A stretch of DNA of 32,934 bases, from IMG/VR virus record IMGVR_UViG_3300009149_000155, positions 1-32,934 of that record; one strand, 5' to 3'. The translations under genes and the position numbers were made by a program. This stretch comes from a virus. This document shows, piece after piece, positions 1 to 23,090 of this stretch (position 1 is its first letter; each line of letters begins with the position of its first letter). Below the pieces are notes generated by a model. The model ran no database searches and had not been told where the DNA came from. It saw only the letters and a program-made list of their open reading frames with translations.

Positions 1-3000
1 TAGCTTGTACTACTATTCTGCCATTTGTAATATTATCTACTGCATTTGAACCACTACTTTGAAGAGATAACTTATATAGAGTATTGTTTATAAATGTAAA
101 GGTTTCACCCTTTAATATGTCTGTAGTAGGTAGCGTATAAAGACGATTAGTAGATAATGGAGTTACCTGAAACCTTGGACTAGCTGCTGTTAAAGTAGCT
201 GCTGTGTCAGTTCCATCTAATCCAGCAGGAGATAAAAAAGCTCCAGCTATAAATGTTTTAGAACCTGCAAAAGCCTGAGCATCAGTTGTAACCATTCCGT
301 TATCTGTTGCACTTGCTGCCGGAAGACTAACGGCACTTGAACCGATAGCATAAATGAGTTTTACTTTAACTGTCCCAGAACCAAGTCCACTTGTTAAAGT
401 TGTCCCACTTGTTTTGAATTGAGTTTCGTTCCAATAGAAGTAAGAACCTGCGTCATCATTTGTGTAATCACCAGCCGTTGGACCTTCTACTTGCAATACA
501 ACATGAGTAGGTGTCCCACCCTTTAAATTATGATTAAAAGGAAGAAGAGCATCTATTTCAGCCGCAGTACCAGTGATCACTCGACCATCTGTTGCAACCG
601 ACTGACTAACGAGATTATTAGACTTGAGGAGCAATAAAGCAGAGGACATTGGACTTTCACCTGAAAGATCCCAGTAAAGATCGTTTACTTGCTTGTCAAT
701 TACGAAAGTGTTTGAAGGTCTGTTAAATCCGTCTAATGCTAATTCAGCTACCCATGCTTGTCTGTTTGGTTCGAGATTTCTATTGTGTGGATATTTGTAA
801 GAGAATAGTTTTGCTATGTCGTCGTCGGTGTAGGCGTAGCCGTTATTGAAAACGAGTTCATCTATCTTACCTTTAAAACGTTGTGTACCTCCAGTCCAAC
901 TTCCAATACCAACAAATTCGTTTGCAGTAGCACCATCCCTATCAGTAATCATAGATCCCACTAAAACTGAATTCAAATACAAACTAAGTCTTTTAGATGC
1001 GAAATCATATACTATAGCTACATGCTCCCATTTACCTAAAGTAACATTAGTAGTCTCAATAGAACCATCTAGAACAGCACTTTTACTGTAAGACGTTAAT
1101 GATAACCCTACAGTGTCATGGTAATTAAGATATAGATGGTTGTTGTCTCCAGTATAATCTAGGTCAAAAATAACAGCATATGCTGCCTCATACAAAGCAA
1201 TATTTACCCACATGGATACACTAAAATCACCGGGAGTAACAAAGAAAGAATTAGCAGCCATACGCAAATGATCGCTTAACCCATCAAAACTTACAGCACT
1301 ACCAGCAACACCATCAATACCAATAGCATTAAAATCTGGAGCACCAGTTAAAACTGAAAAATGATTTCCATTTACAGAATTATCATTAGCGTTTGCATCA
1401 AAGTTATAAAAAGAAGATGTACCGAATGAAGGTATACTATCTGCACCAACTACATGACCAGCCGCATATTGAGGACCATTAAATCTTCGAGAGTAGATAC
1501 CTAGTATTTGATCTGGCGTGTAAGTCGTGTTGTTACAAAGGAAAAATTCGTCTATTTCACCTTGAAAACCATAGGTAGCAGGATCATCATTCAAAGCACC
1601 TAAATTCCAAGCTGTAGCTCGACTTGTTACTTTTAAACCACCAACAACCTCAACAGAACCAACTTTGTGTCCATTTAGGTAAAGAGTCAGTAAATCGTTA
1701 GTACCTTGTGCAACAGTAACAGCTAAATGAATCCAACCATTAGAATCAGCATATCCTAAGAAATTATCGACAGTAATACTATCACCTGCGGTAGTACCTT
1801 CACGAACTCCCACTATAACCAACTGTCCACTAGCATTATGTTTAATCCAGATTAATCCATCTACACCGTTTTGCCCACCAGAACCATAAATATGTTGGTC
1901 AATAGCACTAGGAGGACTAGGCTTAACCCACATTCCAAAAGACTGATCGCCAGCAGATAAAAAGAAAGCCTCTGTCGGTTCCATCCACACAAACACTCTT
2001 GCATAACTTGTTGATCCATCAAATTTTGCAGTAGTTCCAGATTTAAAGATATCCAAACCATCAAAAGTAACCTCCAACCCCTGCAAACCGTAACTACCGC
2101 CAGAACCATCCTCAAGATCTGTATCTAAATTATAATACTCAAAATTCCCTGTCAAAAAACTATCTTCCAAATCACCTTGAGTGTTATCTACAATCCCAAC
2201 TTCACCGATAGTCGCAATGCTCTTTGTGTGATCAATATCACTAGGCAAACCGATAGGCAACACATGTTGGCTTCTAGCCTTATCGGATGGAGCTAACCAA
2301 GATCCACCAGATCGAACAATCGTTCCTATGTATGCATATCGATATGTGTTTTGTTCTTCTGCTGTAGTTGTAGAAAGAACAAACATTGTGTTGTCTACAA
2401 CGTAAACTGATCTTGCACCTACAAGGGTAGCCGTAGCCGGTAACTGCTCAAGGTCAAGGTAAATATAGTAGTTACCATCAACAGTGTAAGAAGAAAGATC
2501 TACGATCAAATCAGTAGCACTGTAAAATTCCAGTCCGTTTGAAAGTTCACGAGAACCTTTTTTGATCGTCAAGTTTGTTCCACTGACCGACTGAGGTTTG
2601 AAACTAGTATCTCCACCAGCACCACCTGCACCTGCACCAAAAGTAAAAATTCTAGTATCAGCACCAACTTTGTTTTCAATAATGTCAGTAGCACTACCTG
2701 CTGTTTTATAAGTGCCGGGGGTAGCCGATGTTGTTCCTTCGATATCTATATAACCAAGAGGTATCCCGTCTAATGCTGCAAACAATGATCCGGGATCAGG
2801 TAACGATCCAAGTCCAGCAACATTAGGACTAAACAAACAATCAATCGCATTATTTCCAGCTTGATAAACAAAAGCTACTCGTCTGAATTCTCCAATGACC
2901 GATGTTGGAAGGGCAAACGTTGCTCCTTCTACTGTCACTGTCCCACCTGTAATAGCTTCAGTTTGAAAGTTTATAGTTGTCGCTGCATAAACTGGAACCG

Positions 3001-3235
3001 TATCATCGGATGGTGGCATTACGCTTTGTGTACCATCCCCTTGATTAACCTTGTTCGCTGTAATTGCCAATACAGCACTTGCAGTCGGTTGATTTTGTCC
3101 CAACTTTAATGGACTGTCTAATGATGCATTAATGGCATCCATTATCACATCGTTGGTTGCTTCCGCAGCCTGACCCAATGTTGGCAATGCTGTACTTTGG
3201 ATGTCCTGATAATTCTGCCCTCTTGTTCTTACCAT
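1..3235 (-). CDS. Tail fibre/adhesin with two LamG-like domains, 3' partial
   Basis: The frame is open from an ATG at 3235 to the left edge of the window: 1078 codons with no stop, so the C-terminus is missing. I checked the frame at several points by reverse translation. A ribosome binding site (AAAGGA) lies 7 nt upstream. Residues 1 to about 330 are a baseplate-proximal region beginning MVRTRGQNYQDIQ and containing a Gly/Ala-rich linker. Residues about 360-580 and 605-815 each look like a concanavalin/LamG-type jelly roll: both hold a W-x-H-h-A-h-x-Y/V strand, a 'LxLYLNG/S' strand, and a closing 'G-x-I-D-E-h' motif (FQGEIDEFF and FKGKIDELVF). The C-terminal part resembles repeat-rich fibre shafts ('ATDNGMVTTDAQ'). 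LamG-like domains usually bind carbohydrate or protein. The inferred role is host-surface recognition at the distal tail. It is the last gene seen in the tail operon. The domain assignment is by eye and the ligand is unknown. Confidence 0.85.
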   Translation of the reverse strand, partial: MVRTRGQNYQDIQSTALPTLGQAAEATNDVIMDAINASLDSPLKLGQNQPTASAVLAITANKVNQGDGTQSVMPPSDDTVPVYAATTINFQTEAITGGTVTVEGATFALPTSVIGEFRRVAFVYQAGNNAIDCLFSPNVAGLGSLPDPGSLFAALDGIPLGYIDIEGTTSATPGTYKTAGSATDIIENKVGADTRIFTFGAGAGGAGGDTSFKPQSVSGTNLTIKKGSRELSNGLEFYSATDLIVDLSSYTVDGNYYIYLDLEQLPATATLVGARSVYVVDNTMFVLSTTTAEEQNTYRYAYIGTIVRSGGSWLAPSDKARSQHVLPIGLPSDIDHTKSIATIGEVGIVDNTQGDLEDSFLTGNFEYYNLDTDLEDGSGGSYGLQGLEVTFDGLDIFKSGTTAKFDGSTSYARVFVWMEPTEAFFLSAGDQSFGMWVKPSPPSAIDQHIYGSGGQNGVDGLIWIKHNASGQLVIVGVREGTTAGDSITVDNFLGYADSNGWIHLAVTVAQGTNDLLTLYLNGHKVGSVEVVGGLKVTSRATAWNLGALNDDPATYGFQGEIDEFFLCNNTTYTPDQILGIYSRRFNGPQYAAGHVVGADSIPSFGTSSFYNFDANANDNSVNGNHFSVLTGAPDFNAIGIDGVAGSAVSFDGLSDHLRMAANSFFVTPGDFSVSMWVNIALYEAAYAVIFDLDYTGDNNHLYLNYHDTVGLSLTSYSKSAVLDGSIETTNVTLGKWEHVAIVYDFASKRLSLYLNSVLVGSMITDRDGATANEFVGIGSWTGGTQRFKGKIDELVFNNGYAYTDDDIAKLFSYKYPHNRNLEPNRQAWVAELALDGFNRPSNTFVIDKQVNDLYWDLSGESPMSSALLLLKSNNLVSQSVATDGRVITGTAAEIDALLPFNHNLKGGTPTHVVLQVEGPTAGDYTNDDAGSYFYWNETQFKTSGTTLTSGLGSGTVKVKLIYAIGSSAVSLPAASATDNGMVTTDAQAFAGSKTFIAGAFLSPAGLDGTDTAATLTAASPRFQVTPLSTNRLYTLPTTDILKGETFTFINNTLYKLSLQSSGSNAVDNITNGRIVVQA

Positions 3236-8058: not shown

Positions 8059-8475
8059 TCAACTTATAGCAATATCTTCTTCGCTTACCCTTGCCAATTC
8101 ATTATCTGCTATAGCTATATTACTAGTCGGAACATTCATATCGACATCAAAAACACCATTGACCGCTTTTATTGCGACAAGAATCTCTGTAAGTATGACA
8201 TCAACACCTACTGCAAGCCTGTTTACATAATTTGAAACAGCACTCTTAATATCATTTGTGATAAGTGAAAGTGTTATTCCACTACTAGTTGTAATTACTA
8301 TGTCAAAACTAACTGGTACAATCACTGGCTCAATCACTTCTACATGAACGCCAGCCGCTCTAATTCCGGGATAGTTCTCTTGATCAGATTCGACACCATC
8401 AACCGTCCATTGTGCTACTTGAGCTAGTCCAGTGAAATATCGATATCCATCAATACCCCTTGCTTCTAACCAAAC
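8059..8475 (-). CDS. Baseplate J C-terminal portion, in the -1 frame
   Basis: This frame is open from about 8475 to a stop at 8059 and encodes 138 residues. It has no ATG, and the first possible start (GTG at 8337) lies in the middle of the domain without a ribosome binding site. The translation ('VWLEARGIDGYRYFTGL', then 'YPGIRAAGVHVEV', 'VGVDVILTEILVAIKAVNGV' and 'SNIAIADNELARV') closely resembles the C-terminal domain of baseplate J / Mu gp47 family proteins. Those typically have a 'YPGVKAAGV' segment, a V-P-V-x-h strand, a 'G-x-D-V-h-x-x-x-L' helix and end near 'VAIADDEVAR'. The upstream J frame ends in this region at 8466, so this is the missing end of J. It is reached by a -1 shift at the G run 8475-8478, or the sequence lacks one G. 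Coding identity is well supported; the expression mechanism is not. Confidence 0.8.
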   Translation of the reverse strand, partial: VWLEARGIDGYRYFTGLAQVAQWTVDGVESDQENYPGIRAAGVHVEVIEPVIVPVSFDIVITTSSGITLSLITNDIKSAVSNYVNRLAVGVDVILTEILVAIKAVNGVFDVDMNVPTSNIAIADNELARVSEEDIAIS

Positions 8476-11400
8476 CCCAATTGAGTATTCGCTGGACCGC
8501 CCGTAACCGATATCGCAGCGTCTTCACTAAAAGATAAAGATGCCAACTGTAATGCAGCAGAACCCATCTCTTTGATTTCAGCTTTAGTTTGGAGCAAAGT
8601 TATTTGATTATTGTTCCAAAATTCTTTTACCTGTTTTGCTGTGACTGGAAGTATTTGATATGTATCTCCAGTTAAAGGTGCAGATGGAAATGGTGCAGTT
8701 GTTGTAATTGTTCCACTTGCAGGTACATATGTTGAAATTACTCTTCGAACACCTGCTTCAGTCCCATCAATCATCTCAATTTCATACCCTACTATATCAG
8801 TAGCTATTTGCCATACGTTGTTCAAAGTAGAATCAATAAGTGTTGAAGGATCAGTTACCCCTGTAAGTGTACTTTCTCGATATAAAGGAGCCAAAAAGTT
8901 ATCAGTTAAATTATCGTCTACAACAATGATCAAATAATCATTAGTCGCAAAGGTAAATGGTCCTATATTTGAAACCAAAGCTGGTTGATGACTAATAAAA
9001 TTTTCAACTAATAATACTGGAAAATTCAAAGTATTATTTGCACCTGAGTCATCTACTCTAAAAGAACCACTATTCATTCTATTGGTTTTAAGTTTGATAT
9101 AAACAGCTTCGAATACCGAAGCAGTAATGCCAACTGTTCGACTATTGATAGCTCTTACTACTTCAACCAATGTTGCAGCACCAACATCAACAAAATCTCC
9201 AGATACAAACGTAACCGTCTTCGTTATTCCATCCACATACATGGTTAGAGTTTGCCCAACCAATCCAGAAAAGCTAGAAGCCGGTTCAGAAATAGCGAAG
9301 GCTCTGGTATCGTTTGATCCTAAAGTTACTTTATCGTTTGGATTAAGAGTTTCAACTAATTCAATTTGACCTACAAACCTATTAAGAGTGTAATCTCTGT
9401 TTGCACCAAATTCTTCAGTTTCACTAAATGCTAAAATCTCATTACCACCACAAATTTTTATTCTTGATTCTGTTGGAGGTGTCACAACTGCTGCTGCTGT
9501 TCTTTGAAGTCGTAACCAAAAATGAGATTCAGCATCGACCGCAGTGATAGCCCAGTCGGTAGGAGCCATGAATTTTAGATGACCGCTTTGAGTGAAACCT
9601 AAAGTTCCATCATGTACTCCTAAATTTGTCCATGCCGAGCCGTTCCAATATTCAAAAACTAAGTCCAGATCTGCACTTGCATTGACCAACAGATTAACAT
9701 AAACGGTATCGAATGGAACGTCTGCATGACCAAGATACACATAGTCCAAATTGACCACAAACATCTGAACGTTTGAAGCATTACCAGCACACTCAACTGT
9801 TCGGTCAACATTAGTTCCACCCTCTTCGCTCCAAACATGATCAAAAAGTTCTACAACACGCATACTCGATTCATTGTCACGTTCTAACATTGAAGCAAGA
9901 GAAATCCTTGTGTTGTTCGATGAAGACTTAGCGGTAAATCCTGTTATCCTTGCATTAATATAATTAACAAGCTCATTCACACTGACTATTGTAGCATTCA
10001 CAAAACCACTTGGAACAAACCAAATGTTTTGAATATTAGCTTTCGCACCATTTGCAATAACTGCAAGACTTGTTTCCATTGCAGAAAAATTATAGGTAGC
10101 TGGACTAGCACATTCAATTGATGCGGTTTTTCCATCTTTAACCAAAAGATGTAAGACATTATCTCTAAACAAATAAAGTTTGGTTGTATATTTAATATCA
10201 GTTTGGAACCCAAGCGCAACATTAGCTGATCCATCGACCACACGAATCTCTTCGTTATTATTTGATCTCGAAAAAATTCTTAATTTGACCCCATTGCTCG
10301 AAACACGAGATTCGGTAAGATTAGAAGATGAATTTATTTTTGTAAGAACCTCTTGAGCAGTCCCAGAACCCGGAACTGCAAAGTCGGAAGCTACAAATGT
10401 TATCGCTTCTTCTACCCCGTTAACATCTATATAAAGTATCTCACCATGAGATATGTTATAAGGCTCCGCATTTTGCGTCTCAGTAAACGCTTTCATCAGG
10501 GGAGTGTTCCCTATGCTCAGATACTTCTCACCGCCTGTAGCTGCAGGTACAACGACTTCTAGCCCTACTCTATTAAACTCAGGAATAAATCCTGTCCCAT
10601 CGTCGATGAAAAGCTTAACTACGTCAGTTGGAACCGTTGCCTCTCTGAGCGTAGCAGATACCACACGTTTGTTATCAGAAGTTGAAATCAATCCCTGAAC
10701 ACCTGTCACTATTGATTGAGGTGTCCCTCTTGATAAAGATTGAAGTGTAGACTTGATCCGATCTCTCAATGCTTGATCAGATTCATCGTCAACACCGTTT
10801 GTTACCCTTGTTGGATTTGTAACTGTGGCTCCTGTAAATGGTGCTGATCCAAAAGCTCTAATAGCACCGACCGGAACATTGCCTATTGTTCCCGATTGAG
10901 AAGCCGTCACTGCCACACCTGTCACTTCTGAATTACCATCCAGAATCGTAGCAGCAGCATCCAATGTAAAACTTATTTCTTCAAGAGTATCTGAAGCTGG
11001 AACCTTAACCTCTGTCCCAGAAGTAATTACCCTATTTCCACCTTGAGACAAAATTATTGTTTCGTCCGTCCCATGATCATTTGCAAAATTTCCCGTTAAA
11101 TTAAAAGTTACATAGTTAGCTTGAGTAGTGATCGAACTATAAACCAATGTTTCAACATTGGGAGTCCCTCTACCAACAATAATACTTCCAGTTGTAGGAA
11201 ACCCAGTCGCACTATCTCCATTGACGGTATTGCTACCAGCCGCAGCACCAGCCAAACCGGAATAAATACCGGTCACGATCTTAGTTATTGTGGAATCTCT
11301 GATAGTTACAGTTGTGCTTGATTCCGAAGCTTCAATTCTTTCAAGAGAATATTCTTCAGCACGATTGTCAAGATCCGTTCCTGTGGTGGAATCAAGAGAA

Positions 11401-15377: not shown

Positions 15378-17194
15378 TATGCCATCCCCTTCAATATATC
15401 AGCACTAACTCCAAGTGTCCCTGCTATTGGAATAGATCCATCTCTTGATGTTTGTGTTTTAACCAAATAATTAGATGAAAATTCAGTATCTAATTTTCCA
15501 GAATCATTTTCTGATGCATCTATAAAAGGATTGTATCTATTTGCAAATTGTCCTCGTGTCAATTGCCATTCAGTTTCCCACTGACCCGGAAATGTCCACG
15601 TATGCGAGTATCCTTCTATATAATAAATTTTATCATTATTTTTAATTAAATGAGTAGTTGATGATAGAATCTTTAATGCCTTACCAATCTCAGCTTTATT
15701 ATTTCCAACCGACACCATAGTCCCTGTCTCATACAAATGATTATAAACATTTGCATCAAATAATTGTTCAAGGAATGATTTATATAAATCAATATTAACA
15801 TTTAAAGATTGTGATTTCCCTCCCCTAGTAGGATACACAAATGCTAATTCTCGATCGACACGCTTTAACCCATATCTTTTTATTGATTCGATTTGAACCA
15901 TGGGGTTCCCAATTCCACCCTTTTGACCCATTTGAACGTTTGCAAGTTCATTTACCCTTCCATATTTACTTTGAATAGCTGAAAGCCAAACCATATTGAT
16001 TCTTGAATTGCTATCTCTACCCAAGTCTTCATATTTAATCTCGCTTGGATCAATATCTACCGTAGGATAATCTTGCAATGCTTTGTAATGATTATTAAGC
16101 ATACCCATTGTATCTTTAAAAAACGCAGAAGATGGATGTGGTCTTAAAACAATTGATGGAGCAGCAATCCCTTTATTGTCTCTAACCAATTCGCAATAAA
16201 GGTCATTCACAACATCATTCGATGATCTTTTCAGACAACTCCATAATGGTTGACCCTTACCAATCATGTTTCTTTCTTTTTCACCGGGCAAATCTTGTTC
16301 AAGTAGTCTCTGCATAATATCATCAAAGTGGACACCATCTTGACCAAACGCTGATGATAATCCTGACAACGTTGCGACCGCACCTATAATATCTGCAGCA
16401 AAACTAAGACTGTCCTTTCCAGACTTAATCTTCTCTTGTCTTTTAAAAAGAGAAGCAGCACCACTAGGAATGATCCATTGATTTAATGGTTCTGTCTTAC
16501 CCTTCCCAATAGCTGTATTGGATAAGCTGGCACCTTTCGATCCTAAAAAAACATCTAAAATAGAATTGACAAGTTGAGAAGGATTCCCAGAAAAAGGAAT
16601 ACCGGCTGTATTGAGGAGGACTTGACTGCTTACAGTCTGAATTAAATATGGATTAAAAAATGTTTCAGTGTCTTCAAATACTTTTCCAAAATCTCTACCT
16701 GAAATCACATATCGAACAATTATTTTATCACTGTCTTCTTCTCTCTGTCTGGTTCTGCTTACTCGATCAACATTCCCAAACATAACCATATTTCTTGTTG
16801 TTTTGTCTTTTGTATATTCCTTAGTGTCAGAATATAAGTAAATTGCAAGCCAATCACCGGGAGAAATATACTGTTTCCAATTCTTATTAGGTAAAACAGT
16901 AATACTAAAACTACCAGACGAATTGCTCATGGTCTTGTGTACTGAAACTTCAGTCAATTCAGCTTCTAATGTACCTTCAGTGACTTCCATTACAGTTTTA
17001 GAACTATTGCCTAAACTAAAATCCACACTACTGGCTACACCAAAATTTTGAACTTCATAATGCCAATAGATAACACGAGCAAATGAAGTTGTAGCTCCAA
17101 TCTTTCGATACTGACTAGAATCTTTTTTGAAAGATCCCTCTGCATTGGCTACCTCACCTACTTTCTTTGATACTGTGTCTAGGAATGATGCCAT
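15377..17194 (-). CDS. Baseplate hub protein (gp27 / gpD-like)
   Basis: This 605-residue protein starts in a TAATG overlap with the tape measure stop and ends in another TAATG overlap with the spike. Residues about 70-170 show the first beta-domain of phage late control D / hub proteins ('LEAELTEVSVHKTMSNSSGS', 'SITVLPNKNWKQYISPGDWL', a 'NMVMFGNVDRVS' strand, and 'KIIVRYVISGRDFGKVFED'). The central ~200 residues include a helical insertion (about 260-330). The C-terminal part returns to beta structure ('TGTMVSVGNNKAEIG', 'DKIYYIEGYSHTWTFPGQWE'), another hub signature in which an aromatic H-x-W segment precedes the last strands. The hub connects tail tube, tape measure and spike as a trimer. 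The gene order TMP-hub-spike agrees. Confidence 0.85.
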   Translation of the reverse strand: MASFLDTVSKKVGEVANAEGSFKKDSSQYRKIGATTSFARVIYWHYEVQNFGVASSVDFSLGNSSKTVMEVTEGTLEAELTEVSVHKTMSNSSGSFSITVLPNKNWKQYISPGDWLAIYLYSDTKEYTKDKTTRNMVMFGNVDRVSRTRQREEDSDKIIVRYVISGRDFGKVFEDTETFFNPYLIQTVSSQVLLNTAGIPFSGNPSQLVNSILDVFLGSKGASLSNTAIGKGKTEPLNQWIIPSGAASLFKRQEKIKSGKDSLSFAADIIGAVATLSGLSSAFGQDGVHFDDIMQRLLEQDLPGEKERNMIGKGQPLWSCLKRSSNDVVNDLYCELVRDNKGIAAPSIVLRPHPSSAFFKDTMGMLNNHYKALQDYPTVDIDPSEIKYEDLGRDSNSRINMVWLSAIQSKYGRVNELANVQMGQKGGIGNPMVQIESIKRYGLKRVDRELAFVYPTRGGKSQSLNVNIDLYKSFLEQLFDANVYNHLYETGTMVSVGNNKAEIGKALKILSSTTHLIKNNDKIYYIEGYSHTWTFPGQWETEWQLTRGQFANRYNPFIDASENDSGKLDTEFSSNYLVKTQTSRDGSIPIAGTLGVSADILKGMA

Positions 17195-19539
17195 TATCTG
17201 CCATACCCTTTCCCAAGAGATGGTCTAAAGCTAGATGATGATTTCTCTTTTGATGTTTTTATTTTCATGGTCTGATTAAGCTGCCCCATAACATCTATAA
17301 GCTTCTTTGTTGATTCATCATTTTTCTTTAATTGTTCCCTATCAAGGCTACTAGGTTCTTCCGAAGGTTTATTAGCACTAGTTATCTCTCTTACATTATC
17401 ACCAGACATGCTAGACATAACTTTTCCAAGAGTATTGCCAAGATCATCATACTTTGCTTTTTCCCCTAATTGTTCTGAGACTATTCTTGTTGAGGCAGTT
17501 ACTTGTTCTTCAGGTGACCATCTTCCACCAGCATTCCTTCTCTCTTCATTTAGACCTCCCAACATACTAGCATACCCACCAGCAGTCATATTCCCACCGG
17601 ACTCCTTAACCTGCTTCATCATCCTAGTTGTTTCTTCACTACCTTCTGGTCCAAAATCTTTTTGAGCTTTTAAAAGATCTAAGTTTCCAGTATCAATATT
17701 TCCACCATACCCAAGCTTATTAAAAAATCTGCTAGTGGTATCATTTAACCAATTATCTGTACCCCAATTGATAGCTAATCGTATCGCTTCTCCAACAGCA
17801 ACACCCAAAACCGCTGCTCCTGCTAGTGCAGCCGTAGAAGTCAAAGCAGCCGCTACCATCGAACCTGTTAATAGCCCTCCAGCAGCACTTCCAATAGCAC
17901 TTCCAGCAATACCTGCTCCTACTCTAGTGATCGCTATTTTAGCTAGACCACCAACACCTAATACTAAAAACAATTTTTCAACATCGGAACTAAACATTCC
18001 TGTAGCCTTAGCAAATTCATCAACTGCACCTGTCATTTTAACAACAGCACTAGTCATTCCATCAGCTACCTTATTTTTCATACTGTCAATTCTCGAACCA
18101 AATTCAAGAACAGCACCTTCGAACGATTTCATATTTTTAGCAGCACGTTGTTCTGGAGTTTGTTGAGCATCTTTTAATTCTTGGATCTCTTCTTTTGATA
18201 ATTTGATCCCTTTGATTTTTCCTGTCTTGGTATATTGTGTCCATAGCTTAGTAAATATTGGAACCGCAGCCGCATCTGACATTCCTGTCCCTTGCTTGAA
18301 TGCTAAATATTTATCTTGTTGTCCACCACCCAAATTAACAACGTCACGCATGACAGTCGTTAACATACTATTTACCATCTCTGATCCACTGACCTTGAAT
18401 ATATCCGCAACTTTATTCAAACCAGCATTGTCCAAAGCATCTATATCTTTTTGCTTCATGGTCCCAAATAAACCCATGTTCCTTCTGACTTCTATACCGG
18501 CTGGAGAAAGACTTCCACCGGATGCCAAATCTAAAGAACGATAAGCTAAAAATTGTTGATATGGATCTGTGCTTTTAAAAGTGTTTTCAATACTCTTAAG
18601 AGCATCAAAAATTCTATCTGGTCTGCTATCACCTAAAACTTTTCCAAAAGCCATTCCCATTCCTGTAAGAGACTTTTGATCAATATCAATTCCCTTTGAC
18701 ATTTCTTCCATATAACCTGTCATGGAAGCTAAATATTCACCCACCGCAGAACCACTCATACCAGCCGCAACCGCACTACCAATCGCATCTGCAACAAATT
18801 TCCCTTCGTCTGCTACACCACCACGCCTTGCTGCGCCAAAAGCTTCTCCATATTGTTCTCCAGAAACACCATATGCCCTCTGAAAAACTTCACTCTCTCG
18901 AGTTCTAGCCTCTAACTCTTGCCCAGTCATATCTCGACCGGCAGAACGAGCTATCCCTGTTGCCCGTTCTCTACGCTGTTGACGAGTAAACCCAAGGCTA
19001 ATGTCATCTCCTATCATTGCACCGCCAGTGAGTTCTCTAAGACCCATACCGGGACCAGCTTGTTGGATAGACCGTTGGATGGATTGCTGAACGCCAAATC
19101 CTAACCCCAGCATACCCAAGGCTCGCATCCCACTTCCACCCATGCGTTTCAGAATTCCACCACCAGCAGCACCACCAGCACCACCTAATCCACCACCTAA
19201 TCCACCACCTGACATTAATTTTTGTTGTCGATTGATTTCTTTTATCTGGTCAGAATATTTATCTGCTGTGCTTAATAGTTGTTGAGCTTTTTTGTTGTCC
19301 CAAGCATCCTTGCCAGTTTGGGACATTTTGATAAGTTCATTGTTAACTTGATCAAAACCACTTTTGGCTATTTTTAGTTGACTGCCTAAGTCATCCACTA
19401 ATGCTTTTTTGAATTCTCTGCGAATGGTTGGATCTAACTTTACTTTTCCAAATTCTGCTATTGACTGTTTCGCTAGTTCAGTCTTCTCCTGAAGAGGTTT
19501 TATATCTAAGCCAAGTGATAACTTTGCTTGTTTAGGCAT
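17194..19539 (-). CDS. Tail tape measure protein
   Basis: I chose the ATG at 19539 (781 residues, beginning MPKQAKLSLG) because GAGGA lies 8 nt upstream; an in-frame ATG at 19563 has no good site. The N-terminal ~130 residues are helical and charged. A Gly-rich hinge follows ('GGGLGGGLGGAGGAAGGG'), then a long Ala/Gly/Met-rich helical region. A hydrophobic stretch at roughly 530-610 ('LFLVLGVGGLAKIAI', 'GSAAGGLLTGSMVAAAL') could insert into a membrane, as seen in many tape measures. The C-terminus is low-complexity and polar. The protein sets tail length and is ejected with DNA. At about 1.5 angstrom per residue, 781 residues would suggest a tail near 115 nm; this is an estimate only. The gene follows the chaperone and precedes the hub, the expected order. 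Confidence 0.9.
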   Translation of the reverse strand: MPKQAKLSLGLDIKPLQEKTELAKQSIAEFGKVKLDPTIRREFKKALVDDLGSQLKIAKSGFDQVNNELIKMSQTGKDAWDNKKAQQLLSTADKYSDQIKEINRQQKLMSGGGLGGGLGGAGGAAGGGILKRMGGSGMRALGMLGLGFGVQQSIQRSIQQAGPGMGLRELTGGAMIGDDISLGFTRQQRRERATGIARSAGRDMTGQELEARTRESEVFQRAYGVSGEQYGEAFGAARRGGVADEGKFVADAIGSAVAAGMSGSAVGEYLASMTGYMEEMSKGIDIDQKSLTGMGMAFGKVLGDSRPDRIFDALKSIENTFKSTDPYQQFLAYRSLDLASGGSLSPAGIEVRRNMGLFGTMKQKDIDALDNAGLNKVADIFKVSGSEMVNSMLTTVMRDVVNLGGGQQDKYLAFKQGTGMSDAAAVPIFTKLWTQYTKTGKIKGIKLSKEEIQELKDAQQTPEQRAAKNMKSFEGAVLEFGSRIDSMKNKVADGMTSAVVKMTGAVDEFAKATGMFSSDVEKLFLVLGVGGLAKIAITRVGAGIAGSAIGSAAGGLLTGSMVAAALTSTAALAGAAVLGVAVGEAIRLAINWGTDNWLNDTTSRFFNKLGYGGNIDTGNLDLLKAQKDFGPEGSEETTRMMKQVKESGGNMTAGGYASMLGGLNEERRNAGGRWSPEEQVTASTRIVSEQLGEKAKYDDLGNTLGKVMSSMSGDNVREITSANKPSEEPSSLDREQLKKNDESTKKLIDVMGQLNQTMKIKTSKEKSSSSFRPSLGKGYGR

Positions 19540-19642
19540 CGAAATAATCCTCAAATTCTTCATCAGTTACGGTTGGACTGACTTTTGTAATCTTAGATCT
19601 CGGAAGACTTCTCCCAAGACTATTGATTATAACATCTACTTC
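19532..19642 (-). CDS. Probable C-terminal end of the long tail assembly chaperone, in a third frame
   Basis: After the preceding frame stops at 19636, the -1 frame reads 36 sense codons to a TAA at 19532. The translation looks like real protein ('EVDVIINSLGRSLPRSK', then an acidic-aromatic ending 'TVTDEEFEDYFDA'). It has no possible ATG, GTG or TTG start, and in this frame a stop lies only five codons upstream of the GAT GGG junction. Its end overlaps the tape measure start by 8 nt, a typical coupled-gene junction. This suggests it is the true C-terminus of the chaperone extension, reached by a -1 shift at GGG (19642-19644) or through one missing G. The alternative is that it is non-coding spacer that happens to look protein-like. 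Confidence 0.5.
   Translation of the reverse strand, partial: EVDVIINSLGRSLPRSKITKVSPTVTDEEFEDYFDA
19548..19552 (-). promoter_or_regulatory. Ribosome binding site deciding the tape measure start
   Basis: GAGGA lies 8 nt before the ATG at 19539. It favours the MPKQAKL start over the ATG 24 nt upstream. The site lies inside the last codons of the chaperone-tail frame ending at 19532, so the two genes overlap and are probably translationally coupled. Confidence 0.75.
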
Positions 19643-20034
19643 CCATCTGTAAGATCCTTATCATTTTCGTTTTGATACTTAGAAATATCAACCTTAACTT
19701 TGCCTAAACGCTTTTTTATAACCTTTTCCATCTCAGGATCTAAAGAACCGTCCCAATCATCCTCTTGCTTTTGGTTAACTGATCCAAGAAACTCTTCTAT
19801 CTTCTCAGGATATCTAATGTAATATTCTTCCAACTGTTCAATAAAAAGTTCTTCAATCGTATACTCATCCAACTGTTTTGGTGGTTGCTTATAATGATTA
19901 CACCACCATCTAATCAATCTTTTTTCAGTATCCTTAGTGTTTGAAATAGCAATACGATGAAGATTATCATTGTCAAGTAATTGATTTTTCAATATCTCTG
20001 ACAAGTTTTTTAGTCTTATCTTCATCGGATACAT
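19636..20034 (-). CDS. Tail assembly chaperone, downstream (T-like) portion
   Basis: The frame is open from 20106 to a TAG at 19636. It overlaps the upstream chaperone frame by 134 nt and is +1 (equivalently -2) relative to it. Independent starts exist: the ATG at 20034 has GGAG 9 nt upstream, while the upstream GTG at 20106 looks poor. The translation contains 'DTEKRLIRWWCNHYKQPPKQ' followed by acidic helices ('IEELFIEQLEEYYIRYPEK'). A short helical, acidic, Trp/Tyr-containing protein before a tape measure fits the T half of a G/GT chaperone pair, which coats the tape measure during tail assembly and is absent from the virion. Expression as a frameshift fusion with the upstream frame is likely but not proven. 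The coding end may really extend to 19532. Confidence 0.7.
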   Translation of the reverse strand: MYPMKIRLKNLSEILKNQLLDNDNLHRIAISNTKDTEKRLIRWWCNHYKQPPKQLDEYTIEELFIEQLEEYYIRYPEKIEEFLGSVNQKQEDDWDGSLDPEMEKVIKKRLGKVKVDISKYQNENDKDLTDGK

Positions 20035-20401
20035 CTGATTCATCTCCACCATGTATTTTCTTTTTCCATTCAACTTCAAAATCCATAACTTTATTATAGA
20101 TTTCACTCACTACATTTCCATCATACATCTCTAACCCAAATGTGGTTTCAGCCCACCAATCAGGATATTCTTTTAAAGTATGTCTTAAATAAGCTATGGC
20201 ATGATTGAATTCAGCAACCTCAAGGTCATCAGGATCTTTGTCTCCATTTAATCGACCACGTAATGCTGATAACCGACTACGATCACCTAATGTCGGTCTG
20301 ACATATTTGAACTTACCAGCCCAATTCATGCCAGTTTCTTTGCCTTGCCCTTGGAAATTGAAGGAGTATTCCATGCTTGGGAGAGAAAAACTTTTTTCCA
20401 T
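19973..20401 (-). CDS. Tail assembly chaperone, upstream (G-like) portion
   Basis: This 142-residue protein follows GAGG 7 nt upstream of the ATG at 20401. It begins 'MEKSFSLPSMEYSFNFQGQ' and contains a 'FKYVRPTLGDRSRLSALRGR' segment and an 'EVAEFNHAIAYLRHTL' helix, a pattern I associate with small chaperones located between tube and tape measure. It ends with an acidic, lysine-rich tail in the region overlapping the next frame. Position (tube, then this, then an overlapping second frame, then tape measure) is the strongest evidence. Family membership is inferred, since such chaperones diverge rapidly. A terminator precedes it, so its expression should be much lower than that of the tube. Confidence 0.75.
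   Translation of the reverse strand: MEKSFSLPSMEYSFNFQGQGKETGMNWAGKFKYVRPTLGDRSRLSALRGRLNGDKDPDDLEVAEFNHAIAYLRHTLKEYPDWWAETTFGLEMYDGNVVSEIYNKVMDFEVEWKKKIHGGDESDVSDEDKTKKLVRDIEKSIT
20006..20011 (-). other. Candidate frameshift site in the chaperone overlap (run of six A)
   Basis: On the coding strand the upstream frame reads ACT AAA AAA CTT. A -2 slip of lysine tRNA on the A run would keep full pairing and continue as AAC TTG in the downstream frame. The heptamer A AAA AAC is present but not phased for a -1 shift from the upstream frame. A +1 shift at the terminal ACT TGA C (19973-19978), a weak-context stop, is an alternative. One surplus A in the sequence would also explain the offset. Confidence 0.4.
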
Positions 20402-20483: not shown

Positions 20484-20924
20484 TTATCCGTCAGCTTCGT
20501 CAAAAGCAGTTCTACCGACGAATGACCATGTTTCGGTCATAACCCCTCTTGCGTCAACGGCTGACTGTCTTGCTTGAAGTTTAACACCAGTCATAAGCAA
20601 AAGGATCGCTTTCGTATCCCTATCCACTACTGATGCTGTCAGTTCTCCTTGAGTCAAAATCTGAGAAAGTGAAGACATATATCCCAAACCTTTAACAGAT
20701 TGATTTGGAACTCTAAAATTTTGACACTGTAAATCTACGGTATACCCAGTCTCAGCATGTTCTGCTACTTCCAACTGGTCAAGTACGTTTATAGGTTCGT
20801 ATGTAATATTTTCGTTCCAAGAAACGTTAGAAGCATAAGCTACCTTGTTACCATCCAACAAGAATATTGCCTTAGCACCAGCCATCACAACGCTTTTGCT
20901 GTCATTACCTGCTTGTACTGCCAT
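20484..20924 (-). CDS. Tail tube protein
   Basis: This 146-residue protein has an AAGGGAG ribosome binding site 8 nt before its ATG. The sequence alternates strands through most of its length ('AKAIFLLDGNKVAYASNVSW', then 'INVLDQLEVAEHAETGYTV', 'ELTASVVDRDTKAILLLMTG', 'GVMTETWSFVGRTAFDE'), matching the small single-domain beta-barrel tubes of myoviruses, which are about 140-170 residues. It directly follows the sheath gene, as in most contractile-tail phages, and is followed by a terminator. It should form the stacked hexameric rings through which DNA passes. Confidence 0.88.
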   Translation of the reverse strand: MAVQAGNDSKSVVMAGAKAIFLLDGNKVAYASNVSWNENITYEPINVLDQLEVAEHAETGYTVDLQCQNFRVPNQSVKGLGYMSSLSQILTQGELTASVVDRDTKAILLLMTGVKLQARQSAVDARGVMTETWSFVGRTAFDEADG

Positions 20925-20936
20925 GATTTATCTCCC

Positions 20937-23090
20937 TTATGCGCTTTGCTGAATGTCAGCTAAGTAAATTGTTGGTAATGCAAAATCAAGTCCTTGAACT
21001 GGAGTGACAATAACATCAATGCTGGCTGTATTACCTTCAACTACTACCTTAAGGTTTTTATAACCAAGCCCATCATTAAGATCATCTCCAACAATAATAT
21101 CTGCTTTCAAGTGTACTTCAAATCTTGCTTTACAAAGATTTGCAATACTCTCGGCTGTACCAGTCTTAGCTTTAGTTCCTGTAAAGAGAGCTTCAAGATT
21201 ATAACGCAAATCATAAGCAACAAACCCGCCAGCTTCTACAACTGATACTCTGTTCCAAACAAAACTAGGATCAACACCATATGTTGTGTTACCAACAACA
21301 TCTCGATATCCACCTGTGTCTAATGGTTCTGAAAGTTGGCAGTTTGCTTCGATCAATTCATCATAATCAAGTTTAGGTTCCCAGCTACCATCTCGAACTC
21401 GATATCCACTGACATTTTCGAGTTTGAATGTATTTGGTTCTCCAACTTCTGACCCAGCTTGCAAACCAGCTTTTATACAAGCTTGTGCCCATGGATCAAG
21501 ATAAGCCGTCTGCTTTTGAGAGTAACTGTATACCAAAGGATCTTGACCACAAATTGAAACATACGCTGAAGACATTGCTGCTGCCATTGCTTTAAATTCA
21601 GTTTTTGATCCAAGAACAGAAACATAAGCATTTCTTTCAGATTTACCGCTTGTGCCCCACATCTTAATAACATGGCTTTTAGCTAACGCATTCACTGAAG
21701 AAATCGTGACCGCACCAGCATCTTCTGAAATTAATGGGACAACAATATTTATTCTTACTGTTTCAAACGCTTCAAACCCATTTGCATAATCAGAGTTTGC
21801 AGATACACCATTTGTTCCACCAGTAAAGAAAGCTGGAGTTGTAAATGTTGCAAGGGCACCATCAACATTTGTAATCCTTGCAGCACTAGCAATATCACTA
21901 GTGGCTGTTAAGAAATCAACAAAATCTTGAACATCTCGTTTAAGATCCAAAGCTACTGTTTCAATATTGATCGCATTGTAATAATCAAGTTCGATAGAAT
22001 CAAGATCACCATTGGGTCCAGTCAAAGTACATGTATAAGATGCATGTGCATTGATTACATCGACCAACTCTTGAAGAGTCATTTTTGAAACTAGCTCACC
22101 GTTCTCGGTCTTGCCGATAATGAAATCAAGATCGTCTGCTGGAGTAGCTGCACAGCTAGTCGTAAGTTTTCGATCTCCAGCCGCATCTGCAATCGTCAAA
22201 GTTGAAGTTACTGCTGCACCTGTATAAAGGATTTGGATTTGAGATACACCACCAAGCTCTTGTTCTGCGTCTTCAATCAAGCTACCTTTTTTCAAGGTAA
22301 TATAACGAGAACCTTTTCGGCCTCTATCTGTACCAGCGATACCAAGGATAGTATCAAGTGTTGAAGTAGCACTAACCGAAATATAACCAAAATCCAATTT
22401 AGCAGTTGTAAGAACTGAGGTTAAAATTTCAATATCAACTTTCAAACCGTTTGCGGAAGCTGTGACTGGTCTGGAAGGGGACCATCTTGCATCTGTATTC
22501 AATTCAGTTTCAATAGCAGAAGTTGTTTCAGCTGCACCTGTCAGAAGAGAAGTAAAAGTATAAACTGTTCCATTGATAGTTACGATCAATGTGTCGCTAC
22601 CACCAGACAAATCAAATGGTCCATCGATTGTTCCATTGATGATCGCATTCAAATCTGTGATCGAACCAACCGATACGTTATCAACGTTGGCATTGTTCTC
22701 ATCTGCACCATAATTTACAGTTTCAAGATCGACTAGACTAAGAGGAGTCGCCTCGTTATTAGCTAGTCCTAATACAGCCTTTGTTGAATTATTTGTTTTC
22801 CAAATGATCACTGTACTTGCACCGTTTGCAATTCGAGCATCATTTGAAGGTTCAACTAAAAGTCCTAATGCATCTGCTATAGGTCCAGACTTGTATCTCG
22901 CCTTTGCAGATTGAATTTGAGTCCCTTGTAACACATCCAAAACACCCGGCTCACCACCCACTGATTCACCTACTATGCCAACAATACCCGTTGGCTGTAA
23001 TGGGAATCCTGTGAGATTTTGTACTTTTAAAGCACTGTAGGAACCCGGCTTTCGAATGGTCTTTCCATTAAATACACGTCTAATTGCCAT
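20937..23090 (-). CDS. Tail sheath protein with internal module insertions
   Basis: This 717-residue protein has a GGGAG ribosome binding site. The start 'VFNGKTIRKPGSYSALKV' followed by 'TGIVGIVGESVGGEPG' is a typical sheath N-terminus. The C-terminal third has the sheath core order: a 'VWNRVSVVEAGGFVAYDLRY' strand region, then 'GTAESIANLCKARFEVHLKA' and the final strands 'GYKNLKVVVEG...IDVIVTPVQGLDFALPTIYL'. Residues about 450-560 carry the alpha/beta core ('NAYVSVLGSKTEFKAMAAAM', 'AQACIKAGLQAGSEVGEPNT'). Between about 135 and 420 lie additional beta-rich segments. Two of these, about 158-252 and about 294-380, resemble the module repeated in baseplate J. Simple sheaths are often shorter (about 390-500 residues), so the surface is likely decorated by these insertions. 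Confidence 0.92.
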   Translation of the reverse strand: MAIRRVFNGKTIRKPGSYSALKVQNLTGFPLQPTGIVGIVGESVGGEPGVLDVLQGTQIQSAKARYKSGPIADALGLLVEPSNDARIANGASTVIIWKTNNSTKAVLGLANNEATPLSLVDLETVNYGADENNANVDNVSVGSITDLNAIINGTIDGPFDLSGGSDTLIVTINGTVYTFTSLLTGAAETTSAIETELNTDARWSPSRPVTASANGLKVDIEILTSVLTTAKLDFGYISVSATSTLDTILGIAGTDRGRKGSRYITLKKGSLIEDAEQELGGVSQIQILYTGAAVTSTLTIADAAGDRKLTTSCAATPADDLDFIIGKTENGELVSKMTLQELVDVINAHASYTCTLTGPNGDLDSIELDYYNAINIETVALDLKRDVQDFVDFLTATSDIASAARITNVDGALATFTTPAFFTGGTNGVSANSDYANGFEAFETVRINIVVPLISEDAGAVTISSVNALAKSHVIKMWGTSGKSERNAYVSVLGSKTEFKAMAAAMSSAYVSICGQDPLVYSYSQKQTAYLDPWAQACIKAGLQAGSEVGEPNTFKLENVSGYRVRDGSWEPKLDYDELIEANCQLSEPLDTGGYRDVVGNTTYGVDPSFVWNRVSVVEAGGFVAYDLRYNLEALFTGTKAKTGTAESIANLCKARFEVHLKADIIVGDDLNDGLGYKNLKVVVEGNTASIDVIVTPVQGLDFALPTIYLADIQQSA

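Follow-up and report, generated by a model that had tools for sequence, protein, structure and literature searches.

In the tail gene cluster of an uncultured, contractile-tailed phage, the tail assembly chaperone gene G is overlapped, in the +1 register, by the gene in the position of T, which probably has an ATG and a Shine–Dalgarno sequence (SD) of its own for translation, and an apparent third reading-frame segment would be the end of T, put out of frame by the loss of a single G. It is fairly likely that no covalent G–T fusion is made, i.e., that T is a free protein whose translation begins inside G, and that the ratio of the two proteins is set by the strength of initiation rather than by frameshifting. 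The stretch of DNA analysed here (the window) is 32,934 nucleotides long and is an uncultured virus record (IMG/VR record IMGVR_UViG_3300009149_000155, positions 1 to 32,934).

The tail gene cluster lies on the minus strand, as do all the genes and motifs of the window described below. The order of the genes is tail sheath (20937–23090), a gene in the tail tube position (20484–20924), G (19973–20401, encoding 142 amino acids), T, and a long tape-measure-like ORF. An earlier note had described the chaperone region as three reading-frame segments, and these are indeed present, with the coordinates and frames that it gave. Recomputed from the window sequence, the first segment (G) and the second (an open stretch from 20106 to 19636) share 134 nt, and the second is displaced by +1/−2 relative to the first; the third (19657–19532) is again in the first frame, has no ATG, GTG or TTG start, and overlaps the ATG of the tape measure gene (at 19539) by 8 nt. 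In the window, T is thus cut short: from the proposed start at 20034 it reaches only 19636, and 36 further codons and a stop (19532–19642) are displaced from its frame.

No named phage matched the window at the nucleotide level, and bacterial and archaeal genomes, when scanned, yielded no relative and hence no indication of a host. The closest named relatives are very distant: the sheath is 25–32% identical to those of Myxococcus phage Mx1, a Bordetella phage, and Bacillus Herelleviridae. At one end of the window, a very long ORF (2–3235, at least 1078 amino acids) runs off the end of the contig; two repeated-looking stretches in it resemble laminin-G/concanavalin-like modules, and it is probably a tail fibre gene, both judged by eye only.

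G is a tail assembly chaperone (N-type) by its position and its profile matches and, less firmly, by its fold. It sits between the tail tube position and the tape measure, which is the placement of tail assembly chaperones. The profile phrog_1038 (tail assembly chaperone) was matched by 16 of 17 members of the G family, with a best E value of 4e-7, and phrog_25000 by 10 of the 17 (best E value 5e-9); G of the window, taken alone, gave a weak match (E value 0.09). The predicted fold of G (pLDDT 85) has as its best solved match the HK97 tail assembly chaperone gp13 (2ob9), with a middling Z of 5.0 and an rmsd of 4.7 over 88 residues, and predicted structures of viral chaperones match the model with E values below 1e-3; Foldseek, used on solved structures ahead of the VIA second look, had returned nothing significant for G. 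For T, it is the position that gives the label of T-type chaperone. A tblastn search with T against named phages found no match, comparison with PHROG gave weak and scattered matches, and the model of T (pLDDT 72), which predicts a helical protein, had no convincing match among predicted viral structures. The earlier identification of the locus as a tail assembly chaperone pair is supported.

The displacement of T relative to G is +1/−2 in all 19 distinct lineages that were compared (15 recovered in a first profile search and four recovered later in a search with a T profile), and the overlap measures 38–134 nt. The first change of register is real and conserved. In 13 of the 19 lineages, a stop in the T frame lies no more than six codons upstream of the T ATG, which leaves the open frame little length beyond the gene itself.

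The proposed start codon of T in the window is the ATG at 20032–20034 (there is an alternative in-frame ATG at 20025), and the proposed SD is the GGAG at 20044–20047, 9 nt before the ATG. The conserved part of the T protein begins with an in-frame ATG in 15/15 lineages of the first set and also in the four later ones, which had played no part in forming the idea of an independent start. When the codons of G were shuffled synonymously, an ATG was expected in 9.1 of the 15 lineages (p 1.5e-4), and an ATG together with a core SD, which was found in 11, was expected in 3.0 (p 1.6e-6); the lineages share ancestry, so these p values overstate their independence. The proposed SD of T is encoded within the last codons of G, and in relatives it appears to be the VEAGN of G that codes for it. 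Often the T ATG is preceded by a motif such as GTAGAGGCTGGCAATG, of which the TAG doubles as a stop in the T frame, so that the T ORF opens at the SD. In the predicted structure, the first helix of T spans residues 8–18, shortly after the proposed methionine.

The locus would thus consist of G (20401–19973) and T (from the ATG at 20034 to 19532) as overlapping genes in the +1 register. Judging from this conservation, T is most likely translated independently, from the ATG and the SD that lie within the end of G; G and T would be two separate proteins, in a ratio set by the strength of their ribosome-binding sites. Against an independent start stand five lineages (L012, L024, L025, L027 and L039) in which the SD is weak or non-canonical, a comparison of amino-acid conservation in both frames of the overlap, which favoured neither frame, and, in the window, a run of six A residues (A6) followed by a predicted hairpin.

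The distant relatives bear on the same question. In lineage L028, T begins 15 nt after the stop of G, and in lineage L029 it lies in the frame of G, directly after the stop; in neither do the genes overlap, and the family therefore includes both arrangements, with and without an overlap. In phage Mx1, the gene in the place of T begins 2 nt after the stop of G. The second protein is divergent in L028 and L029 (MSKFGILNFVR and MSKYGLLNFLR, respectively, after a G stop at about 3417 and 3408).

A GT fusion product may possibly be made as well, at a low level. The reading in which T comes from its own start and a little GT fusion arises by inefficient shifting is unlikely, although phage lambda needs only about one GT for every thirty G (PMC5009743), and the conserved overlap and register would keep a fusion possible; a conserved shift signal was not found in the lineages, and the register is lost in the distant relatives with separate genes.

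The earlier note had proposed a Mu-like −2 shift, for which the A6 run (20006–20011, in the window and in the near-identical contig L002) would be the slip site. A single programmed −2 shift at this run, producing a GT fusion, combined with a one-base error further downstream, is quite improbable. The register fits, a −2 re-pairing of the run is possible in principle, the window has a predicted hairpin shortly after it, and long-tailed phages as a rule make the fusion by a frameshift, which in Mu is −2 (PMC5009743). However, the run is not conserved. Among the 19 lineages, six-A runs occur in the overlap, beyond the window and L002, only in L027 and L044/L045. The register is also kept in many relatives whose overlap is free of homopolymer runs; eight lineages (L013, L015, L016, L019, L020, L023, L026 and L035) lack any run of four or more identical bases there, and no slippery motif common to the overlaps of the 19 lineages was found. 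The hairpin is not conserved either: its z is −2.5 in the window and −1.9 in L002, with a mean over the 19 lineages of only −0.5; the predicted structure is mildly stronger than chance in the window but is not a trait of the family. With a conserved ATG, in most cases accompanied by an SD, T can do without a shift, and in L028, L029 and Mx1 it stands apart from G with no overlap. Assignment to the Mu-like frameshift class fails on two of the features tested: the register and the overlap are those of the class, but a conserved slippery sequence is lacking, and initiation signals for the second ORF are present.

The register would equally fit a programmed +1 shift at or near the stop of G, leading to a fusion, and the conserved IAIS motif of T always follows this stop at a distance of 16–64 nt. 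Such a shift is very improbable. Neither the codon ahead of the stop (ACT, GGA, CCG, CCT, GAG, AAG and others) nor the stop itself (TAA, TAG or TGA) is constant, which removes a common +1 site; nor was a common +1 motif seen among the lineages.

The third segment is explained by L002 (IMGVR_UViG_3300024262_001058), which is 99.8% identical to the window over 6.4 kb. The alignment covers 6359 bp and has 14 mismatches and one gap, and the gap is a single G in the GGG run at 19642–19644: L002 has GATGGGGAAGTAG, where the window has GATGGGAAGTAG. When GGGG is restored, the second ORF reads on without a break across the 36 codons as far as 19532, where it stops, and it is likewise unbroken in every relative whose sequence reaches the end of T, ending mostly in or near DEFEDxF. 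Thus, the 36 codons, which the earlier note had regarded as protein-like, are real coding sequence, continuous with the second ORF in L002 and with a DEFEDxF ending that recurs in most relatives. From the comparison with L002 and the other relatives, the third segment is the result of an indel, the loss of one G from GGGG, and not of a second frameshift; it would be the ordinary end of the T protein, displaced into another frame. Two consecutive programmed frameshifts giving a three-segment protein, a reading that comes from the window itself, are effectively excluded, since the one extra G in L002 fuses the second and third segments, the second break is found in no relative, and GAT GGG AAG is no obvious slip site. 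Of the more conservative reading in the earlier note (one programmed shift plus one base error), the base error downstream is borne out by the GGGG of L002 and the unbroken T of the relatives, and the programmed −2 shift at A6 is not.

The loss of the G is probably an error of sequencing or assembly, although it could instead be a real variant in the population. In scans of viral_contigs, from which the record of the window itself was possibly left out, the GGGG form was present and the GGG form absent. The gene for baseplate J is also broken in the window: the ORF at 8466–11579 matches positions 161–266 of the phrog_6 profile, and the next ORF, in another frame (8059–8523, stop to stop), matches positions 316–405, whereas the same region is one stop-free ORF of 1175–1266 amino acids in 8/8 relatives. 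Together with the gap in the G run, this means that the window record holds at least two frame-breaking indels. As a separate observation, the 14 substitutions that separate L002 from the window are unevenly spread, nine of them lying within about 400 bp around the boundary of sheath and tube genes (3925–4325 in L002, 20869–21269 in the window), which is perhaps a recombined stretch or a mixture of strains.

The tape measure protein gene (17194–19539) begins at the ATG at 19539 and not at 19563, and relatives are alike in this (e.g. L006, with MPTTTKQARLTLGMDIKPL). Its proposed SD is the GAGG at 19549–19552, where T encodes its FED motif, so the tape measure gene would be started in the same way as T, from an SD that lies within the end of the gene before it. 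In two successive cases, the SD of the next gene thus appears to be written into the C-terminal codons of its predecessor (20044–20047 and 19549–19552). For the tape measure gene, these codons are the ones for DEFEDxF of T, and this C-terminal motif may be conserved partly for the protein and partly for that SD.

The locus can be compared with several known systems. Lambda (gpG and gpGT, by a −1 shift) and Mu (−2) also have two overlapping, out-of-frame ORFs between tube and tape measure, and Mu uses the same +1/−2 register; the present locus differs in the conserved start codon of its second ORF, usually with an SD, and in that no slippery sequence is common to the relatives. A review names phage T4 as the exception to the G–GT frameshift, which is regarded as widely conserved in long-tailed phages (PMC5009743), and T4-like phages are reported to have two genes, a short one and a long one that is fused (Vladimirov, Gautam and Davidson 2022, as cited in PMC10885494 and PMC12846349). 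On that description, T4-like phages resemble the present locus in forming the chaperones without frameshifting, and differ in that their long gene is fused, whereas the second gene here is the T part only. In Microbacterium phages of subcluster EA1, a different phage group, the tail assembly chaperones are likewise encoded by two separate genes (PMC11659878). LysYB1 (a Lysinibacillus phage, SPO1-related Herelleviridae) and Mx1 have a weakly similar G and the same order of G, second gene and long gene; in LysYB1, G and the second gene overlap in the +1 register, as here, and Mx1 differs in that its second gene begins after the stop of G. The second proteins are too divergent for comparison by BLAST.

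Genes for an independent T have precedents, and the locus adds, modestly, one more group to a type of exception that was already known. Two cautions follow from it: the register alone is insufficient for calling a frameshift, and single-base breaks in viral records that consist of a single contig are not to be trusted. A group of phages in which T would be separately initiated, in overlapping as well as non-overlapping arrangements, raises the question of whether tail assembly needs a fusion of G and T, or only the right ratio of G to T.
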